Source: Chryseobacterium sp. CY350
GTDB lineage: Bacteria; Bacteroidota; Bacteroidia; Flavobacteriales; Weeksellaceae
DNA length: 64,000 nt
NCBI RefSeq assembly: GCF_027945075.1
Contig: NZ_CP116034.1
Coordinates: 1,984,001-2,048,000, forward strand
Reading direction: 5' to 3'
The notes beneath the pieces are model-generated. The model did no database searches, was not told the DNA's origin, and saw nothing but the letters and a program-made list of their open reading frames with translations. This document shows positions 13,714 through 63,065 of the stretch, in pieces. Numbering within the stretch: position 1 is the first letter of the stretch; each line of letters begins with the position of its first letter. Made by a program: the position numbers and the translations under genes.

Positions 13714-14129
13714 CGGTAAACAACAATATTCTTTATTATTTTATTACCATAAAAAACTCTTTCTTCATTGGTAAAATAAAAACCGTTTTTCTGTTCATAA
13801 TATTTAGTTTGATCTCTCGGAATTGGACTTTGCCATTCTACTAACAATGTAATTGTATTGTGAAAGCTTAATTCCATATCGCAAAACTTAAATCTTGTAC
13901 CCGGCGTTATTGTTTTCTTGCGACCATGTGATGCAGACCAAGCGGTTTTTGGTTGTATTTGTGTCATATCATTTAATAACACTGACAAAGGCTGATTGAT
14001 GTAATTGGCTTTATTGGCTTCGAACTGTTTAAGATAGTTTAAAGTATCAAGCTGCGCTGATAGTGTACCAAACCCAATTATCAAAAGTACAAAAGCATAT
14101 AAGTATTTTAAATTTTTCATTTTTTTCAT
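13710..14129 (-). CDS. Small exported protein, first of three tandem paralogues
   Basis: A 139-residue protein with a signal peptide ending TLSAQ (residue 26). The mature part of about 113 residues is predicted to be beta-rich and has no cysteine pair or catalytic motif that I recognise. It overlaps the lipoprotein gene upstream by four bases (ATGA) and the broken paralogue downstream by four bases. Homology to the gene at 13088-13507 is clear from shared blocks (NYLKQFEANKANYINQP, SVLLND, FTNEERVFYGNKIIKNIVV). The function is unknown. Confidence 0.72.
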   Translation of the reverse strand: MKKMKNLKYLYAFVLLIIGFGTLSAQLDTLNYLKQFEANKANYINQPLSVLLNDMTQIQPKTAWSASHGRKKTITPGTRFKFCDMELSFHNTITLLVEWQSPIPRDQTKYYEQKNGFYFTNEERVFYGNKIIKNIVVYR

Positions 14130-15658
14130 TTTAAATTACAAGTCGTGGTTTGAGTATATGTTGTGATTGGCACATTTACTCCTCCGATGTTTACATTGAT
14201 GATATTTTCTTTAATAAATATTGAATTAAAATTACCAGCAGCATCTTTTTGACTTACTGTAGCTCCCATATCATATTTGTTTAAAACAAATGCTACTGCA
14301 TTGGCATAAGCATCATCATCTGATAATCCCTGCTTAGCAAATATATCTTTTATATTCTCTGACTCAGCATAAATTGGAGAAGTTGGCTTCCAATATGATG
14401 TTGTTATATCCAAATGAGTTCCTGCAGGATTATTAGCTACAAAATTAGCGTATTTTACCGGATCTGTGATCGTTAAAGCATATACAACACCACCATTGGC
14501 AAAAACAAAAAATGTTTTAAAATTAGAATTTATAGCATTAGCTCCCTGCAGAGAATAAATATCTCCAGAAGAAAAACAATTGTACAAATCAATTGTGTGT
14601 GTATGTCCCCCTCCTTCTATGGCTAAGTTCGGGTTGTTTGCTTGTACTCCTACTTGATTTCCAGCAGTTGAAGTATTTATTGGGGTTGTATCATAATCAC
14701 CAATAGCGTCTTTCCCGAATGAAAAAGATTTTTCGTTGGTATCTGTCGCAAGACTTGAGGTAAGCTGAGTTTGTGCTGCTGCTATTTTAACATCTGCTAA
14801 TAATTCTTTTGAATGTACATTATTATTAATTGCCTTCTGACACGGGCTACCTTTCGGCGGCAGATTCGGTGCAGTAGTTGTCTCATCTGGGGGATTGCTT
14901 CCTAATCCACCCGGTCCGCTTCCTCCTCCTTCTCCGTTTTCTCCCAAACCGGTATCTGCAGGAAGTGCAACTGTACATTTTTTCACCAAAGAGACCACCA
15001 ACACCGAGGGCGTTTCAGATCTACAAGGGCCAGCTGTCCCCGTTAGTTCACCATGATGATGATCATCTGTATCGCCACACCTAGTGTAGTAAGTGCTGAT
15101 TTCCATATGGCAATTCATAACATCCTGCTGCATGATTGCAGATGAGTAAGTTCCGTTTTGAAGTATTTCATGAGTTACCTTTCCGGTAAAATCTACTGTA
15201 CCTCCCGAAAGCAGATTCTGTCTTTCCAGAGGAGTAAGATAATACGTTACCAAAACTTCTTTCCAGGTACCATCAGGACGCGAACTGATCACAAGGTTCT
15301 CAATTGGTGCATTGGCAGGAGCATTCTCATGATCGATACGAAAGGTATAGCTGTGGAAGTCCGGGCCTTTTTCGAGGTAGATTACATCATCGGTATCAAT
15401 AGAAATTCCGTTTCCGAAATTCACGGTTTTGCCCTGCAGATTGTTTTTTGAATCATTGTAAAGGTTAGTCTCTACCTGTTTAATCTTAGAGACAAGATTA
15501 GCTTTGTGTTTAGCTTCATTTAAAGAGATTCTTTTGGAAGTAAGCTGAAATGCTCCGCTGTTGTTGTAGGTTTCCTGCTCAGGAATATCCTGCCTACACG
15601 CATTGAGAGATAATAATCCCATCGTCAGGCAAAGCCTGAGAAATAAATTTTTCTTCAT
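14126..15658 (-). CDS. Lipoprotein with a C-terminal JAMM-like motif
   Basis: The 510-residue protein has a lipoprotein signal with LNAC (Cys21). Residues 25-230 are beta-rich with four cysteines, then a Gly/Pro linker (about 235-262) leads to a C-terminal domain. There GGHTHT...FSSGDIYSL gives His352, His354, Ser363 and Asp366, close to the JAMM metal motif HxHx7SxxD but with eight residues in the spacer; Glu348 or an earlier Glu could be the acid. A strand VVYALTITDP follows, as in JAB-fold proteins. It would be a periplasmic or surface metallo-isopeptidase-like protein. The JAMM reading is inference. It heads the operon with the three small paralogues. Confidence 0.6.
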   Translation of the reverse strand: MKKNLFLRLCLTMGLLSLNACRQDIPEQETYNNSGAFQLTSKRISLNEAKHKANLVSKIKQVETNLYNDSKNNLQGKTVNFGNGISIDTDDVIYLEKGPDFHSYTFRIDHENAPANAPIENLVISSRPDGTWKEVLVTYYLTPLERQNLLSGGTVDFTGKVTHEILQNGTYSSAIMQQDVMNCHMEISTYYTRCGDTDDHHHGELTGTAGPCRSETPSVLVVSLVKKCTVALPADTGLGENGEGGGSGPGGLGSNPPDETTTAPNLPPKGSPCQKAINNNVHSKELLADVKIAAAQTQLTSSLATDTNEKSFSFGKDAIGDYDTTPINTSTAGNQVGVQANNPNLAIEGGGHTHTIDLYNCFSSGDIYSLQGANAINSNFKTFFVFANGGVVYALTITDPVKYANFVANNPAGTHLDITTSYWKPTSPIYAESENIKDIFAKQGLSDDDAYANAVAFVLNKYDMGATVSQKDAAGNFNSIFIKENIINVNIGGVNVPITTYTQTTTCNLK

Positions 15659-15783: not shown

Positions 15784-15791
15784 TATATTTG
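15784..15791 (+). promoter_or_regulatory. Putative -7 element of the TPP riboswitch operon
   Basis: TATATTTG fits TAnnTTTG and ends 16 bases before the first conserved base of the riboswitch, the right place for transcription to start just before the aptamer. No TTG was found at -33. Confidence 0.5.
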
Positions 15792-15807
15792 TTACAGTAA
15801 TAAATAC

Positions 15808-15876
15808 ACGGGGTGCCGAAAGGCTGAGATTATACCCGATGACCTGATTTGGATAATGCCAACGTAGGGATGTCTG
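15808..15876 (+). promoter_or_regulatory. TPP riboswitch (THI element)
   Basis: The conserved blocks of the thiamin pyrophosphate aptamer occur in order and with normal spacing: CGGGGTGCC, GGCTGAGA, ACCC, ACCTGAT, GGATAATGCC and CGTAGGGA. These form the outer stem, the pyrimidine-binding arm and the pyrophosphate-binding arm of the aptamer. It lies about 80 bases before the methyltransferase gene, with a strong hairpin in between. Binding of thiamin pyrophosphate normally switches such genes off. Confidence 0.93.
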
Positions 15877-15890
15877 CTTAAAATATTTTC

Positions 15891-15953
15891 ATTTTATGCT
15901 TTATTCGTTCGCATGCTTATCTGTGGTCTGAACCGAATATATCAACATAAAAT
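15891..15953 (+). promoter_or_regulatory. Hairpin expression platform between riboswitch and start codon
   Basis: ATTTTATG (15891-15898) pairs with CATAAAAT (15946-15953) and TATTCGTTC (15902-15910) pairs with GAACCGAATA (15930-15939) with one bulge. The lower arm ends three bases before the ATG at 15957, so the folded form would bury the ribosome landing site. No T-tract follows, which points to control of translation rather than termination. Confidence 0.55.
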
Positions 15954-15956
15954 AAA

Positions 15957-16679
15957 ATGGAAGTAACAAAGTATTCCGGAGAACTGATCCCAAAACAAGA
16001 CAAGAACTGGCAAGGAAGACCCGAATGGTTTTTCAACCGAGAACATACCGACACCTACGAATTGTGGTATGAAGGCCGGTACAAACGCGCCGAAATCTGG
16101 CAGAAAAAAGTAATGGAACAGCTCGTTTCCAAAGATCAAAGAGTAAAAACGCTTTTAGAATTCGGTTGTGGCACTACCCGATTTACCCGTTGGTGGAAAA
16201 ACATCGGGATAGAAGCCACCGGAGGAGATATTTCGCCTTTGATGTTATCGCAGGCCGTACATCTTTTCGATGGCGATCTGGTGATGGCAGATTCTCATTT
16301 TATGCCTTTTAAAGATCATACTTTCGATTCACTGGCATTCATCACAACATTTGAATATTATAAAGATCCTGTGAAAGTAATTCGAGAGGCAGCCCGTGTC
16401 GCCAAATACGGAATTGCAATGGGTATGATGAATAGAAATTCTCCTAAAGTTGCCCGAAGACGAGTGCAGCAGTTGTTCGGGAAAAATCCTTTTTATGTGA
16501 CGGCAACGTTTTATACTCCAAAAATGCTGACGGAAATTATCGAAAAAGCTTTGGTAGGAAGAAAATATACGATTGAATGGACGTGTACCGGACTTCCAAA
16601 ATGGTTTCCCGTACAGCAATGGAATGTGCCGATTGGAGATTTCTTCGGACTTTATATTAAACTAAATGATGTGGAATGA
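15957..16679 (+). CDS. Class I SAM-dependent methyltransferase in a TPP-riboswitch operon
   Basis: The 240-residue cytoplasmic protein has a Rossmann methyltransferase core: motif I LLEFGCGTTRF (residues 66-76), the acidic ribose-binding GGDIS (89-93), ADSHFMPF (111-118) and motif IV-like FITTFEYYKDP (128-138). The N-terminal 60 residues are extended and aromatic and may form the substrate lid. It is the first gene behind the TPP riboswitch and overlaps the AIR-synthase-like gene by four bases. No known thiamin biosynthetic step needs this kind of methyltransferase. The Trm112-like protein at the end of the operon may be its activator. The substrate is unknown. Confidence 0.85.
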   Translation: MEVTKYSGELIPKQDKNWQGRPEWFFNREHTDTYELWYEGRYKRAEIWQKKVMEQLVSKDQRVKTLLEFGCGTTRFTRWWKNIGIEATGGDISPLMLSQAVHLFDGDLVMADSHFMPFKDHTFDSLAFITTFEYYKDPVKVIREAARVAKYGIAMGMMNRNSPKVARRRVQQLFGKNPFYVTATFYTPKMLTEIIEKALVGRKYTIEWTCTGLPKWFPVQQWNVPIGDFFGLYIKLNDVE

Positions 16680-17725
16680 GTGACACTTTAGGGAAAATAA
16701 ATCATTCCGAATTTGAAGATTTCCTCAAACATCGATGTGGAAAAGAGCGTGACGAAGTACGGATAGGTCCTGAGTTTGGTGTAGATGTTTCCGTTGTTGA
16801 TCTGCATGGCGGAAAAGCAATGGCGTTAACGAGCGATCCTCTTTCTTTGATTCCGTCTTTAGGTTTGGAAGAATCTGCCTGGCTGTCGGTTCATCTGATG
16901 GCAAATGATATGGCAACTACAGGTTTTGCACCGATGTTCGGGCAATTTGTTTTAAACCTTCCTGCACAGCTTTCTAAAAATGATTTTGAAATTTATTGGA
17001 ATTACATTCACAAGTTCTGTAAAGAAATCGGTGTAAGCATCACGGGCGGACATACCGGATTTATTGAAGGACAGAATTCTACCATCGCAGGTGGCGGAAC
17101 TTTCATCACGATTGCTCCGAAAGAGGAAATTTTAGTTTCAAAATATGCAAGACCCGGCGATTCAATTTTAGTAACCAAAACAAGTGCACTTTCATCGGCA
17201 GCCATTTTAGCGATGAACTTTCCTGAGACGGTTAAAAATAAGGTCGGAAAAGAATTTTACTATTCAGCCTCTGCTTCATTTTTTGAAACCTCATCATTAA
17301 AAGATGCTTTAATTGCTTTTCAAATTGAAAACTCCGGAGTATCTGCAATGCATGATGTGACGGAAGGTGGTGTTTTGGGAGCGATTTATGAATTGGCCAT
17401 CGCATCAGGAAATGGTGCCGAAGTTTTTAATGAAAAGCTTCCGATTGGAGAAGTGCAATCGGCGGTTTGTAATTTTTTTTCTTTAGATCCGAGATATTGT
17501 ATTGGTGCAGGTTCCATGATTATTACCTGTAAAAAAGAGAAAGCTACGGAAATTATCTCAAGATTGGAAACGAATCATATTCTCTGTACAGAAGTGGGAA
17601 CGATTACAGAAAAATCTAATGGAATTAAACTGATTGAGAACGAAAAAGAAAGTGATTTAACGTATTTCGATGAAGATCCTTATTGGAAGGCTTTCTTTAA
17701 CGCTTATAAAAACGGCTGGAAATAA
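16676..17725 (+). CDS. AIR synthase-related (PurM/HypE/ThiL superfamily) protein
   Basis: The 349-residue protein has the ATP-binding PurM fold: GPEFGVD (31-37), TSDP (52-55), the metal-binding helix NDMATTGFAP (77-86), GGHTG (124-128), GDSILVTKTSA (161-171) and the C-terminal-domain helix MHDVTEGGVLGAIYELA (225-241). The superfamily includes thiamin phosphate kinase (ThiL) and HypE; the GGHT form and overall motifs are nearer HypE-like AIR-synthase-related proteins than classical ThiL. No hydrogenase genes are nearby. Under a TPP riboswitch, an ATP-dependent phosphorylation or dehydration of a thiamin-related compound is plausible. It overlaps both neighbours (ATGA upstream, TAATG downstream). 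Confidence 0.8.
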   Translation: MSDTLGKINHSEFEDFLKHRCGKERDEVRIGPEFGVDVSVVDLHGGKAMALTSDPLSLIPSLGLEESAWLSVHLMANDMATTGFAPMFGQFVLNLPAQLSKNDFEIYWNYIHKFCKEIGVSITGGHTGFIEGQNSTIAGGGTFITIAPKEEILVSKYARPGDSILVTKTSALSSAAILAMNFPETVKNKVGKEFYYSASASFFETSSLKDALIAFQIENSGVSAMHDVTEGGVLGAIYELAIASGNGAEVFNEKLPIGEVQSAVCNFFSLDPRYCIGAGSMIITCKKEKATEIISRLETNHILCTEVGTITEKSNGIKLIENEKESDLTYFDEDPYWKAFFNAYKNGWK

Positions 17726-18354
17726 TGAAAAAGCAAACCGTACAATCGGGAATTTATTTAATTATCGATCCTTCGATGGATGAGGAAATTCTTTTTTCAA
17801 AATTAGATTTAATTGTAAAAGAAAAGATAGCAGCTATTCAGATTTGGGATAATTTTAAAGACAATCAGAATATTGAAGAACTGCTTTTAAAAATTTATAA
17901 AAAAACTTCTTTACATAACATTCCGTTGATTATCAATAACCGCTGGGAATATTTAAATAAAATTCCTTTGGATGGAATTCATTTCGATGAAATTCCTGAA
18001 AATTTGTATGAAATTAAAAAAGAAATCAATCGCAATTTCATTGTAGGAATTACCTGCAATAACGAACTTTTAACGATTGAATATGCTGAAAGATATCATT
18101 TCGATTACATTTCTTTCTGCTCGATGTTTCCCTCAAAAACAGCCAACAGTTGTGAATTAGTCAACTTTGAAACTGTTCAGCAAGCGAAAAGTATTTTTAG
18201 TGGAAAAATCTTTTTAGCCGGAGGAATTGATTTAGATAACATTAAAAATTTAAGTGAATTAAATTATGACGGAATCGCTGTGGTCTCAGGAATTATGAGT
18301 GCAGAAAATCCTTCAGAAACTATTAAAAATTATCATCAAAAAATTAAAAAGTAA
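17725..18354 (+). CDS. Divergent ThiE/TenI-like TIM-barrel protein
   Basis: The 209-residue protein is colinear with thiamin phosphate synthase and TenI, best seen in the phosphate-binding end LAGGID (164-169) and DGIAVVSGIMSAENP (182-196). The usual ThiE active-site residues are altered: QxREK is QIWDN (39-43), the Mg-binding IND is INN (70-72), GQED is FDEI (87-90), and the TK of the PTxTK loop is TA (139-140). The TenI catalytic His region reads ITCNN (109-113), without His. It is therefore probably not a normal thiamin phosphate synthase. The alternatives are a new lyase or isomerase, or a binding protein. It is coupled to the AIR-synthase-like gene by a one-base overlap. Confidence 0.78.
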   Translation: MKKQTVQSGIYLIIDPSMDEEILFSKLDLIVKEKIAAIQIWDNFKDNQNIEELLLKIYKKTSLHNIPLIINNRWEYLNKIPLDGIHFDEIPENLYEIKKEINRNFIVGITCNNELLTIEYAERYHFDYISFCSMFPSKTANSCELVNFETVQQAKSIFSGKIFLAGGIDLDNIKNLSELNYDGIAVVSGIMSAENPSETIKNYHQKIKK

Positions 18355-18358
18355 AATA

Positions 18359-18625
18359 ATGAGAATAAAAACCATAGAAAAATTATGCTGTCCGTTTGAC
18401 AAATCAGATTTAAATTTAACCATCATTTCGCAGGATGAAACTGAAAATATTATGGAAGGTTTACTCATCTGCGACAACTGCAAAAGAGTCTACCCGATCA
18501 TCAGCGGAATTCCCATCATGTCTCCCGACGAATACCGAGAATTTAAACTGGAACAACCTGTTTTAGAACGTTGGGAAAAGAATCTGGAAGGTAAAAAAGT
18601 TGAGAATTTCAGGCTGATTTCGTAG
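18359..18625 (+). CDS. Trm112-like zinc-ribbon protein
   Basis: The ATG at 18359, four bases after the previous stop, gives an 88-residue protein; a longer upstream reading would only add translated sequence of the previous gene in another frame. It opens IEKLCCPFDKSDL (Cys10, Cys11) and has ICDNCKRVYPIISGIPIM (Cys38, Cys41), the layout of the Trm112/YcaR family. In eukaryotes and archaea Trm112 binds and activates several SAM-dependent methyltransferases. Here the operon also encodes a methyltransferase of unknown partner. The C-terminal 35 residues are charged and helical, longer than in the shortest family members. Confidence 0.8.
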   Translation: MRIKTIEKLCCPFDKSDLNLTIISQDETENIMEGLLICDNCKRVYPIISGIPIMSPDEYREFKLEQPVLERWEKNLEGKKVENFRLIS

Positions 18626-18685: not shown

Positions 18686-19681
18686 ATGATAAAAATAGGC
18701 AACATAGAACTGCCGGAATTTCCGCTTTTGCTTGCACCCATGGAAGATGTGAGTGATCCTCCGTACAGACGCCTGTGTAAGTTGCACGGTGCAGATATGA
18801 TGTATTCAGAATTTATCTCTTCTGAAGGCTTGATTCGTGATGCGATGAAGAGCAGAAAAAAGCTGGATATTTTCGATTATGAAAGACCTGTTGGGATTCA
18901 GATTTTTGGAGGTGATGAAGAAGCAATGGCGATGTCTGCAAGAATTGTGGAAACCGTAAATCCTGATTTGGTAGACATTAATTTTGGTTGTCCGGTAAAA
19001 AAAGTGGTTTGTAAAGGCGCCGGAGCCGGAGTTCTGAAAGATGTTGATATGATGGTTCGCTTAACGAAAGCTGTTGTAAGTTCTACGAGTCTTCCAGTGA
19101 CCGTAAAAACACGTTTGGGATGGGACAGCAACTCAATCAATATTGATGAAGTGGCCGAACGTCTTCAGGAAACAGGAATCAAAGCGTTGACGATTCACGC
19201 AAGAACCCGCGGACAAATGTACAAAGGTGAGGCCGATTGGGAACACATTTCAAGAATCAAGCAAAACCCGAATATTGAAATTCCTATTTTTGGAAACGGT
19301 GATATCGATTCACCTGAAAAAGCTTTGGAATATAAAAAAAAATACGCTTGTGACGGAATTATGATCGGTCGTGCTGCGATTGGTTATCCGTGGATTTTTA
19401 ATGAAATAAAACATTTCTTTGCAACCGGAGAACATCTTGATGCACCTACAATTTCAGACCGACTTTTAGCAGTACGTCAACACGCAGAATGGAGTGCAGA
19501 ATGGAAAGGTGAGAAATTAGGCTTGATTGAAATGAGACAGCATTACAGCAATTATTTCCGTGGAATTCCTCATTTTAAAGATTTCAGAAGGAAGTTTCTT
19601 GAAGTTTATTCTTTAGTAGAAATGGATGAAGTGATTAAAGAAACTGAAGGATTTTACGCTGAATATCAGGCGCAGGTTTAG
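18686..19681 (+). CDS. dusB: tRNA dihydrouridine synthase B
   Basis: The 331-residue FMN enzyme reduces specific uridines of tRNA to dihydrouridine. The N-terminal TIM barrel shows LAPMEDVSDPPYRRL, the catalytic region NFGCPVKKVVCKGAGAG (with the active-site Cys), TVKTRLGWD, IHARTR and the phosphate-binding GNGDI and GIMIGRAAIG; the C-terminal helical domain with RQHAEW and FRGIPHFKDFR follows. The length matches the DusB family. The gene has its own -7 element right at the start codon and appears separate from the riboswitch operon upstream. Confidence 0.93.
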   Translation: MIKIGNIELPEFPLLLAPMEDVSDPPYRRLCKLHGADMMYSEFISSEGLIRDAMKSRKKLDIFDYERPVGIQIFGGDEEAMAMSARIVETVNPDLVDINFGCPVKKVVCKGAGAGVLKDVDMMVRLTKAVVSSTSLPVTVKTRLGWDSNSINIDEVAERLQETGIKALTIHARTRGQMYKGEADWEHISRIKQNPNIEIPIFGNGDIDSPEKALEYKKKYACDGIMIGRAAIGYPWIFNEIKHFFATGEHLDAPTISDRLLAVRQHAEWSAEWKGEKLGLIEMRQHYSNYFRGIPHFKDFRRKFLEVYSLVEMDEVIKETEGFYAEYQAQV

Positions 19682-57638: not shown

Positions 57639-57649
57639 TTTTTTTAGGA

Positions 57650-57752
57650 GCTAATACCGCTATCCGCTATATCTTTTTTGCTTACAAAAATTGGTTAACA
57701 GTAAAAAATGATCGTGAAAAGCAAAAAAGGATGTCGCTACTATCGGGGCTAG
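57650..57752. repeat. Imperfect palindromic intergenic element after htpG
   Basis: CTTTTTTGCTT (57673-57683) pairs with AAGCAAAAAAG (57719-57729), and flanking CGCTATCCGCTATATC partly pairs with GATGTCGCTACTATCG. It is one copy only in this window. The sequence GCTAATACCGCTATCCGCTAT resembles dispersed repeats I remember from flavobacterial genomes, which is inference. An open frame across it is not considered real. Confidence 0.5.
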
Positions 57753-57859
57753 AAAGCGCGTGTTCCAAACGAAAGTTTCCGATACTCAGAAAGTCTGACA
57801 ATATTTTTCAGTTTTTCGCTTTTTAAGATCTATCTGCAAAAAAATTCACCAACTTCTTT

Positions 57860-62775: not shown

Positions 62776-62846
62776 AGACCCATAGTGTAGTGGTAACACA
62801 CCGGTTTTTGGTACCGTTATCCGGGGTTCGAATCCCTGTGGGTCTA
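62776..62846 (+). tRNA. tRNA-Gln (anticodon TTG), copy 1
   Basis: The cloverleaf forms fully: acceptor AGACCCA / TGGGTCT, D stem GTGT / ACAC, anticodon arm with loop TTTTGGT (anticodon TTG), and T-stem GGGG/CCCT around TTCGAAT. The discriminator base is A and no CCA is encoded. It is identical to copy 2 at 62995-63065. Confidence 0.95.
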
Positions 62847-62994: not shown

Positions 62995-63065
62995 AGACCC
63001 ATAGTGTAGTGGTAACACACCGGTTTTTGGTACCGTTATCCGGGGTTCGAATCCCTGTGGGTCTA
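62995..63065 (+). tRNA. tRNA-Gln (anticodon TTG), copy 2
   Basis: Identical in all 71 bases to copy 1 at 62776-62846, with the same discriminator A and no encoded CCA. It has its own promoter and terminator, so the two are separate transcription units rather than one tandem transcript. Confidence 0.95.

Follow-up and report, generated by a model that had tools for sequence, protein, structure and literature searches.

A TPP riboswitch-controlled four-gene cassette of Bacteroidota, probably part of an undescribed route to vitamin B1

The window analysed here (64,000 nucleotides of Chryseobacterium sp. CY350, contig NZ_CP116034.1, positions 1,984,001 to 2,048,000, from a genome of 4.09 Mb in one contig) contains a cassette of four genes behind a thiamin pyrophosphate (TPP) riboswitch. 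The genes encode a class I S-adenosylmethionine (SAM)-dependent methyltransferase, an AIR-synthase-superfamily protein (the AIRS-like protein), a ThiE/TenI-like TIM barrel with an altered active site (the barrel) and a Trm112-like zinc-ribbon protein. The cassette recurs widely among Bacteroidota, frequently in species that lack the common genes for making vitamin B1, and is probably part of an undescribed route by which the vitamin is acquired. Its link to thiamin is drawn from the riboswitch, the gene content, some of the neighbourhoods and an exchange with ThiC at the level of the genus. Full-text searches of the open-access literature, which covered titles and the beginnings of abstracts and did not extend to subscription papers and preprints, returned no description of such an operon.

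Anatomy of the cassette and its riboswitch

The four genes are as tightly packed as an initial annotation of the window had proposed: the methyltransferase and AIRS genes overlap by 4 bases, the AIRS and barrel genes overlap by 1 base, and a gap of 4 bases separates the barrel gene from the Trm112-like gene (Table 1). All four proteins score above their own Pfam cut-offs, and each of the nearest NCBIfam equivalogs (thiL, hypE, thiE and Trm112_arch) stays below its cut-off. The THI element that the annotation had called clear is indeed a full-length match above the gathering score of RF00059. It is the single TPP element of the window (Rfam and covariance-model search) and reaches 87.9 bits with a covariance model built from 21 TPP elements, itself among them.

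The methyltransferase gene starts 69 bases after the riboswitch. An AU-rich helix predicted over this start is a possible expression platform; a helix covering the start codon is predicted in seven of seven same-genus leaders folded (two sequence types, with the leaders of L010 and L121 identical), but the overall stability of the window's leader does not exceed that of its shuffles (z -0.03). The direction of control would follow from the riboswitch class. The promoter candidate upstream of the aptamer fits TAnnTTTG, which we take to be the consensus of the Bacteroidota -7 promoter box; a sigma-70 scan, the model of which does not include promoters of the Bacteroidota -7 type, gave no excess.

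Table 1. Features of the riboswitch-controlled cassette (positions in the window)
Feature	Position	Strand	Evidence
Promoter -7 box candidate, TATATTTG	15784..15791	+	Letters fit TAnnTTTG; 7 bases 5' of the aptamer match
TPP riboswitch aptamer (THI element)	15799..15887	+	RF00059 70.9 bits, gathering score 54.3; model positions 1-105 (full length)
Candidate expression platform, AU-rich helix pairing with the methyltransferase start-codon region	15884..15965	+	Leader fold prediction
Class I SAM-dependent methyltransferase, 240 amino acids	15957..16679	+	Methyltransf_11, E 1.1e-15
AIR-synthase-superfamily protein, HypE/ThiL-like, 349 amino acids	16676..17725	+	AIRS, E 4.9e-10; AIRS_C, E 2.3e-20
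ThiE/TenI-like TIM barrel, altered active site, 209 amino acids	17725..18354	+	TMP-TENI PF02581, E 7.7e-29
Trm112-like zinc-ribbon protein, 88 amino acids, ATG at 18359	18359..18625	+	Trm112p PF03966, E 7e-10

Conservation and mobility

A search with an alignment of 14 AIRS relatives in one genome per species yielded at least 585 relatives among at least 592 stretches, and the best 80 of these (54-89% identical) were compared as loci. The initial annotation had staked its idea of a pathway on a gene order that is conserved outside this genome. Such conservation is found: the same four genes, in the same order and on the same strand, are present in 77 of the 80 loci, and the remaining three (L040, L059, and L084) end soon after the AIRS gene, at a contig edge. 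The methyltransferase is present in all 80, and in all 80 the riboswitch lies directly 5' of it. The latter count comes from the covariance model, which leans towards the cassette since 13 of its 21 elements are from cassettes (the window's and those of 12 loci); 68 of the loci contributed nothing to it. With Rfam's own model, each of the 25 cassette genomes searched yields TPP elements that exceed the cut-off. A regular expression for the riboswitch overlooked 26 of the 80 loci and was given up for the covariance model. As the order is the same wherever contig ends do not cut it and the riboswitch is constant, the association of the four genes goes beyond chance.

The surroundings of the cassette are variable. 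When the four genes on each side were clustered, 5 of the 80 loci was the most in which any family kept a constant position, and for this reason dusB, the next gene 3' (at 18686 in the window), is placed outside the cassette. A tree built from the concatenated proteins of 78 cassettes shows 16 changes of taxonomic order against a minimum of 6 (e.g., Arenibacter occurs in two places and Ferruginibacter lies within Pedobacter), although such counts are no proof of transfer. Flanks that the loci do not share and a tree that mixes orders fit a horizontally mobile cassette. The AIRS-like protein occurs in 4 of 148 genomes of an even draw from the phylum and in 5 of 78 genomes drawn from the genus. 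All five genus loci have the four genes, and they represent two sequence types that are about 75% identical in the AIRS-like protein.

The ThiE/TenI-like barrel

Both the TMP-TENI domain and the TIM-barrel fold place the barrel in the ThiE/TenI superfamily. Its AlphaFold model is confident (predicted local distance difference test, pLDDT, 94) and best matches thiamin phosphate synthases in the PDB (template modelling score, TM, 0.81 to 2tps_A and 0.84 to 1g69_B); the TM to the thiazole tautomerase TenI (1yad and 3qh2, the latter with product) is 0.70-0.74. Databases label the protein as thiamine phosphate synthase; its NCBIfam thiE score is 96.6 bits against a cut-off of 145.1.

The active site was compared between 78 cassettes and six canonical ThiE sequences. 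The phosphate-loop glycines are retained as in ThiE and TenI; unlike these enzymes, the barrel has neither the Arg and Lys of the QLREK motif, nor the Asp of the IIND motif, nor the aligned ThiE lysine. Position 41 (Arg of QLREK) is Trp in 78 of 78 sequences, position 43 (Lys of QLREK) is Asn in 58, His in 18, Cys in 1, and Ser in 1, and the region reads Q-x-W, then D/N, then N/H, in nearly all cassettes. At position 72 (Asp of IIND) the residue is likewise always replaced, by Asn (59), Glu (13), Gln (4), or His (2). Position 140, aligned to the ThiE lysine that is presumably K159, changed in 3o16, is Ala, Ser, Val, Thr, Ile, or Asp in all of the 77 cassettes (of 78) that were read there. Gln39, Trp41, His86, Cys132, and Cys143 are invariant in 78 of 78, and Trp41, Cys132, and Cys143 are new with respect to ThiE/TenI. 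As we take the QLREK Arg and Lys and the IIND Asp to bind the diphosphate in ThiE, and the lysine aligned to position 140 to be catalytic, the barrel lacks the ThiE diphosphate-binding and catalytic residues. Judged from these features, it may bind a phosphorylated thiazole-like compound and handle hydroxymethylpyrimidine diphosphate (HMP-PP) in a way that differs from ThiE. No fusion of the AIRS-like protein, the methyltransferase, or the barrel was found among the top 120 matches of each, judged by length only.

The AIRS-like protein

The AIRS-like protein has the two-domain AIRS architecture of ThiL, HypE, and SelD, and by family it would be ATP-dependent. It misses the NCBIfam cut-offs of both thiL (77.2 vs 184.2 bits) and hypE (74 vs 251.6 bits), is 19% identical to the ThiL of the same genome, and has HypE proteins as the PDB matches of its profile. 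Asp37, Asp54, and Asp78 align with acidic residues of ThiL that presumably bind metal and ATP. In contrast to ThiL, HypE, and SelD, the GGDT motif is changed to GGHT and a MHDVTEGG motif is present; the C-terminal cysteine, a feature of HypE, is absent. Its identity to five GGHT-carrying members of the AIR synthase family, from archaea and cyanobacteria, is 28-32%.

Plasmids were searched as well. The methyltransferase gave no match there, and the AIRS-like protein gave 33 records, all below 60% identity, of which six were looked at. In three of three Haloarcula plasmids (L170, L173, and L175), the AIR synthase family gene is divergent from a gene for a thiamin-binding protein (PF01910 was tested for one of the three) and from another whose annotation reads thiamin ABC substrate-binding; katG lies on its other side.

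The methyltransferase and the Trm112-like protein

Of the four proteins, the methyltransferase is by far the best conserved, with a mean pairwise identity over 78 cassettes of 78%, compared with 58% for the AIRS-like protein, 55% for the Trm112-like protein, and 45% for the barrel. It shows a weak sequence match (31 bits) to the eukaryotic 18S rRNA guanine-N7 methyltransferase, which we take to be Bud23/WBSCR22. Among its Foldseek matches, ranks 9 and 11 are taken by 6f5z, a Haloferax methyltransferase bound to Trm112, but the AlphaFold model used is poor (pLDDT 65), which makes the fold matches weak evidence. The nearest solved chains of the Trm112-like protein are 6zxw (43 bits, named uncharacterized) and again 6f5z (33 bits), by its title a Haloferax Trm112 complex, which is thus among the matches of both proteins. 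The Trm112p domain scores 39.1 bits against a cut-off of 22, whereas the archaeal NCBIfam equivalog Trm112_arch is missed (62 vs 77 bits).

The match to the 18S enzyme, the fold match, and the match of the zinc ribbon to 6f5z together suggest a methyltransferase-Trm112 pair, so that the Trm112-like zinc ribbon is a probable partner of the methyltransferase. The pair thereby resembles Trm112-dependent methyltransferases such as Haloferax Hvo_0019-Trm112 and the eukaryotic 18S enzyme. It differs from them in that a riboswitch controls its operon and a thiamin-family barrel is encoded there too, and it is known here from the operon pairing.

Thiamin genes in genomes with and without the cassette

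None of the standard thiamin genes had been seen in the initial annotation. For the operon this stands as far as ThiC and ThiG are concerned, which Pfam does not find among its proteins, but the operon does encode a ThiE-family protein, the barrel. For the genome it does not stand. Chryseobacterium sp. CY350 carries four TPP elements, of which two exceed the gathering score, and the three outside the window lead a thiM-thiE-thiD-tenA operon with a HAD protein gene, a gene for a PnuT-like protein of the NMN_transporter family, and a gene for a TonB receptor. ThiM, ThiE (188 bits), ThiD, TenA, and, elsewhere, ThiL (312 bits) all pass their NCBIfam cut-offs, and TPK is present. ThiC was not found in this genome, nor was a real ThiG, the match being 27 bits over part of the model.

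Within the genus, the cassette and canonical ThiC are inversely distributed in the genomes drawn. Of the 73 genomes that lack the cassette, 67 encode canonical ThiC (>600 bits); of the five that carry it, none does (Fisher p 2.2e-5, uncorrected for kinship). The one cassette-less genome whose ThiC region was read, G012, has a TPP-like motif followed by genes for ThiC, TMP-TENI, ThiD-family, TMP-TENI, ThiG, radical-SAM/BATS, and ThiF proteins. One cassette genome, G194, was counted as lacking canonical ThiC although it encodes a 360-amino-acid ThiC-family protein (193 bits; NCBIfam thiC 167 vs 460 bits). The gene of this protein starts 10 bases after a gene for a SIR2_2-domain protein with weak similarity to the anti-phage sirtuin Dsr2, and the two (L176:189-2615, G194:C46) are perhaps a defence pair in which a ThiC-like protein takes part.

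Across the phylum, 41 cassette genomes were tested (the window's own, three of those drawn from the phylum, and 37 selected among the 80 loci); genomes reached through the loci carry no completeness value, which makes absences there less certain. ThiC occurs in 5 of these 41 compared with 30 of 80 controls, taken from the 144 cassette-less genomes (Fisher p 0.005). ThiC replacement as a phylum-wide rule is weakened, however, as ThiC is rare among the control genera too; the contrast is strong within the genus only. ThiG (PF05690) matches in 30 of the 41 genomes but is real in four (348-364 bits), the other matches being partial (19-32 bits). The barrel is the sole TMP-TENI match over the Pfam cut-off in 29 of the 41, with coordinates checked; these 29 genomes have neither ThiC nor true ThiG, and 18 of them have no match to Pfam TPK. 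In the genus, TPK was found in 18 of 18 genomes tested, four with the cassette and 14 without. A further TMP-TENI gene (93.5 bits) in Arenibacter sp. F26102 (G153:C44:163510-164052) lies 32 kb from the cassette and is perhaps a second copy.

Other TPP riboswitches and adjoining genes

One non-cassette riboswitch was examined in each of 13 cassette genomes besides the window's. Twelve of the 13 precede an open reading frame of 700-833 amino acids with a TonB plug domain. In Bacteroides thetaiotaomicron, the TPP-riboswitch-regulated genes comprise a biosynthesis operon thiSEGCHF-tenI, the outer-membrane transporter OMthi, and pnuT-tnr3 (PMC5613172), and by this precedent TonB receptors behind riboswitches are expected for thiamin uptake in the phylum. 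The cassette shares with those operons the regulator class, the phylum, and a ThiE/TenI-family gene, and the window's genome likewise has riboswitch-led PnuT-family and TonB-receptor genes; unlike the cassette, the B. thetaiotaomicron operons as listed there contain no methyltransferase, AIRS-like, or Trm112-like genes (PMC5613172).

In L068, a locus from Balneolales, the Trm112 gene is followed after 23 bases by a gene for ThiL (291 bits, cut-off 184), which would fit a cassette product that is used by ThiL, i.e., thiamin phosphate (TMP). With the inverse ThiC pattern in the genus and the Haloarcula plasmids, this locus supports the link to thiamin in what the initial annotation had proposed as an undescribed thiamin-linked pathway; the pathway itself is partly supported.

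Some further elements were observed in passing. In Roseivirga pacifica (L169:4165-5974), the riboswitch-led TonB receptor gene is followed by genes for a ROK kinase and a 215-amino-acid protein; the latter was considered as a diverged TPK, but it has no Pfam, NCBIfam, or useful PDB match. In Salegentibacter agarivorans (L164:7169-8272), a 72-bit riboswitch lies upstream of a glycosyltransferase family 2 frame, with a gap of more than 1 kb. A second, weaker TPP element (44.9 bits; L069:10098-10189, minus strand) lies just 3' of the Christiangramia cassette on the opposite strand, with no obvious downstream gene.

Neighbouring features of the window

On the minus strand, divergent from the riboswitch operon, positions 14126-15658 encode a 510-amino-acid protein with what reads as a lipoprotein-like start; it has no Pfam or NCBIfam match at E 0.001. 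A Flavo-1 RNA (67.2 bits) lies at 57649-57754 on the minus strand, and two tRNA genes with equal Rfam scores, perhaps a tandem duplicate, at 62776-62846 and 62995-63065 on the plus strand.

Proposed pathway and alternatives

We see about an even chance that the cassette is an undescribed, mobile, riboswitch-controlled pathway of thiamin acquisition, by salvage or by alternative synthesis, that would be repressed by TPP and would enter metabolism at thiazole phosphate or TMP. Scarce TPP would let the riboswitch permit expression of the operon. As substrate, either a relative of thiamin taken up through the riboswitch-controlled TonB receptor or an endogenous precursor would be conceivable. The methyltransferase would work in a complex with the Trm112-like protein, the AIRS-like protein would use ATP to activate or phosphorylate an intermediate, and the barrel might bind a thiazole-phosphate-type compound and complete or rearrange it, with HMP-PP not used as ThiE normally does. 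The resulting product could then feed into normal metabolism as thiazole phosphate, TMP, or thiamin, and ThiL or TPK would bring it to TPP. A more specific version, which we regard as improbable, makes the cassette an alternative to ThiC, ThiG, and ThiE: thiazole phosphate or TMP would be built from a non-canonical precursor with the help of housekeeping enzymes, through Trm112-dependent methylation and ATP-dependent ring closure or activation of the AIRS type. The Bacteroidota without ThiC, ThiE, and TPK would accordingly be prototrophs or feed on an unrecognised vitamer.

Several observations weigh against a role in thiamin acquisition. The window's genome already has a full set of HMP and thiazole salvage genes, and TPK is present in 13 of the 41 cassette genomes, including all those tested from the genus, so that for these genomes the import of thiamin would be enough. 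The inverse pattern of ThiC and cassette rests mainly on one genus, in which 6 of the 73 cassette-less genomes have neither; the three genus cassettes placed on the tree form one clade and, together with the two sequence types, this means that the independent events are possibly few. Across the phylum, ThiC does coexist with the cassette in the five genomes mentioned, and only 8 of 50 cassette-less control genera have it. A following ThiL gene is found in 1 of 72 loci with a following gene, one of the 13 further riboswitches (L164) precedes a glycosyltransferase instead of a receptor, and three of the six plasmid AIRS relatives, those of Haloferax, Halobacterium, and Acaryochloris, stand beside unrelated or hydrogenase genes (the latter in Acaryochloris). 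What is observed comprises the anatomy, the riboswitch, the constant gene order, the signs of transfer, the loss of ThiE active-site residues, and the inverse ThiC pattern in the genus; the complex, the substrate, the order of the reactions, the product, and the direction of regulation are inferred.

The operon might also serve ordinary salvage, the barrel being a diverged ThiE (TMP synthase), the AIRS-like protein a diverged ThiL (TMP kinase), and the methyltransferase and Trm112-like protein passengers or accessories. The best NCBIfam matches, thiE (97 bits) and thiL (77 bits), the database name of the barrel, and the 29 genomes with no other TMP-TENI protein over the cut-off, 18 of them without Pfam TPK, are all consistent with this view. 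It is nevertheless unlikely: the QLREK Arg and Lys and the IIND Asp are replaced in 78 of 78 cassettes, the window's genome already has its own ThiE and ThiL, the AIRS-like protein is distant from ThiL and its profile matches HypE in the PDB, and the supposed passenger, the methyltransferase, is the most conserved protein and present in all 80 loci.

Alternatively, low TPP might induce a response to thiamin starvation in which the operon makes or modifies an RNA, a protein, or an antivitamin against competitors instead of acquiring the vitamin. TPP-regulated antivitamin clusters are known, e.g., for bacimethrin. Known partners of Trm112 act on the translation apparatus (PMC5372719). The unusual conservation of the methyltransferase would suit such a function, but no export or resistance gene is tied to the cassette, given that no flanking family keeps a fixed place in more than 5 of the 80 loci. 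Moreover, no function in modifying RNA or proteins is known to us for ThiE/TenI barrels or AIRS enzymes, and we consider a starvation response a minor possibility. Least probable of all is regulatory drift, in which a mobile biosynthetic cassette for an unrelated cofactor would have captured the riboswitch once. That a single cassette family is involved and that half of the plasmid AIRS relatives examined lie beside unrelated or hydrogenase genes would agree with this reading, whereas the constancy of the riboswitch (80 of 80 loci, although the cassette has probably moved from order to order), the ThiE-family member inside the cassette, and the inverse ThiC pattern in the genus speak against it.

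Implications

Many Bacteroidota have no ThiC (none was found in 42 of 50 control genera), and genomes of this kind are commonly classified as auxotrophic for thiamin. If the cassette, which is small and self-contained, supplies thiamin or gives access to a new vitamer, these predictions would fail for the genomes that carry it, and the picture of how vitamins are exchanged within communities of soil, sea, and host would have to be redrawn. With thiamin acquired through the cassette, vitamin B1 metabolism would also gain a methyltransferase, a Trm112-type activator, and an AIRS enzyme other than ThiL.

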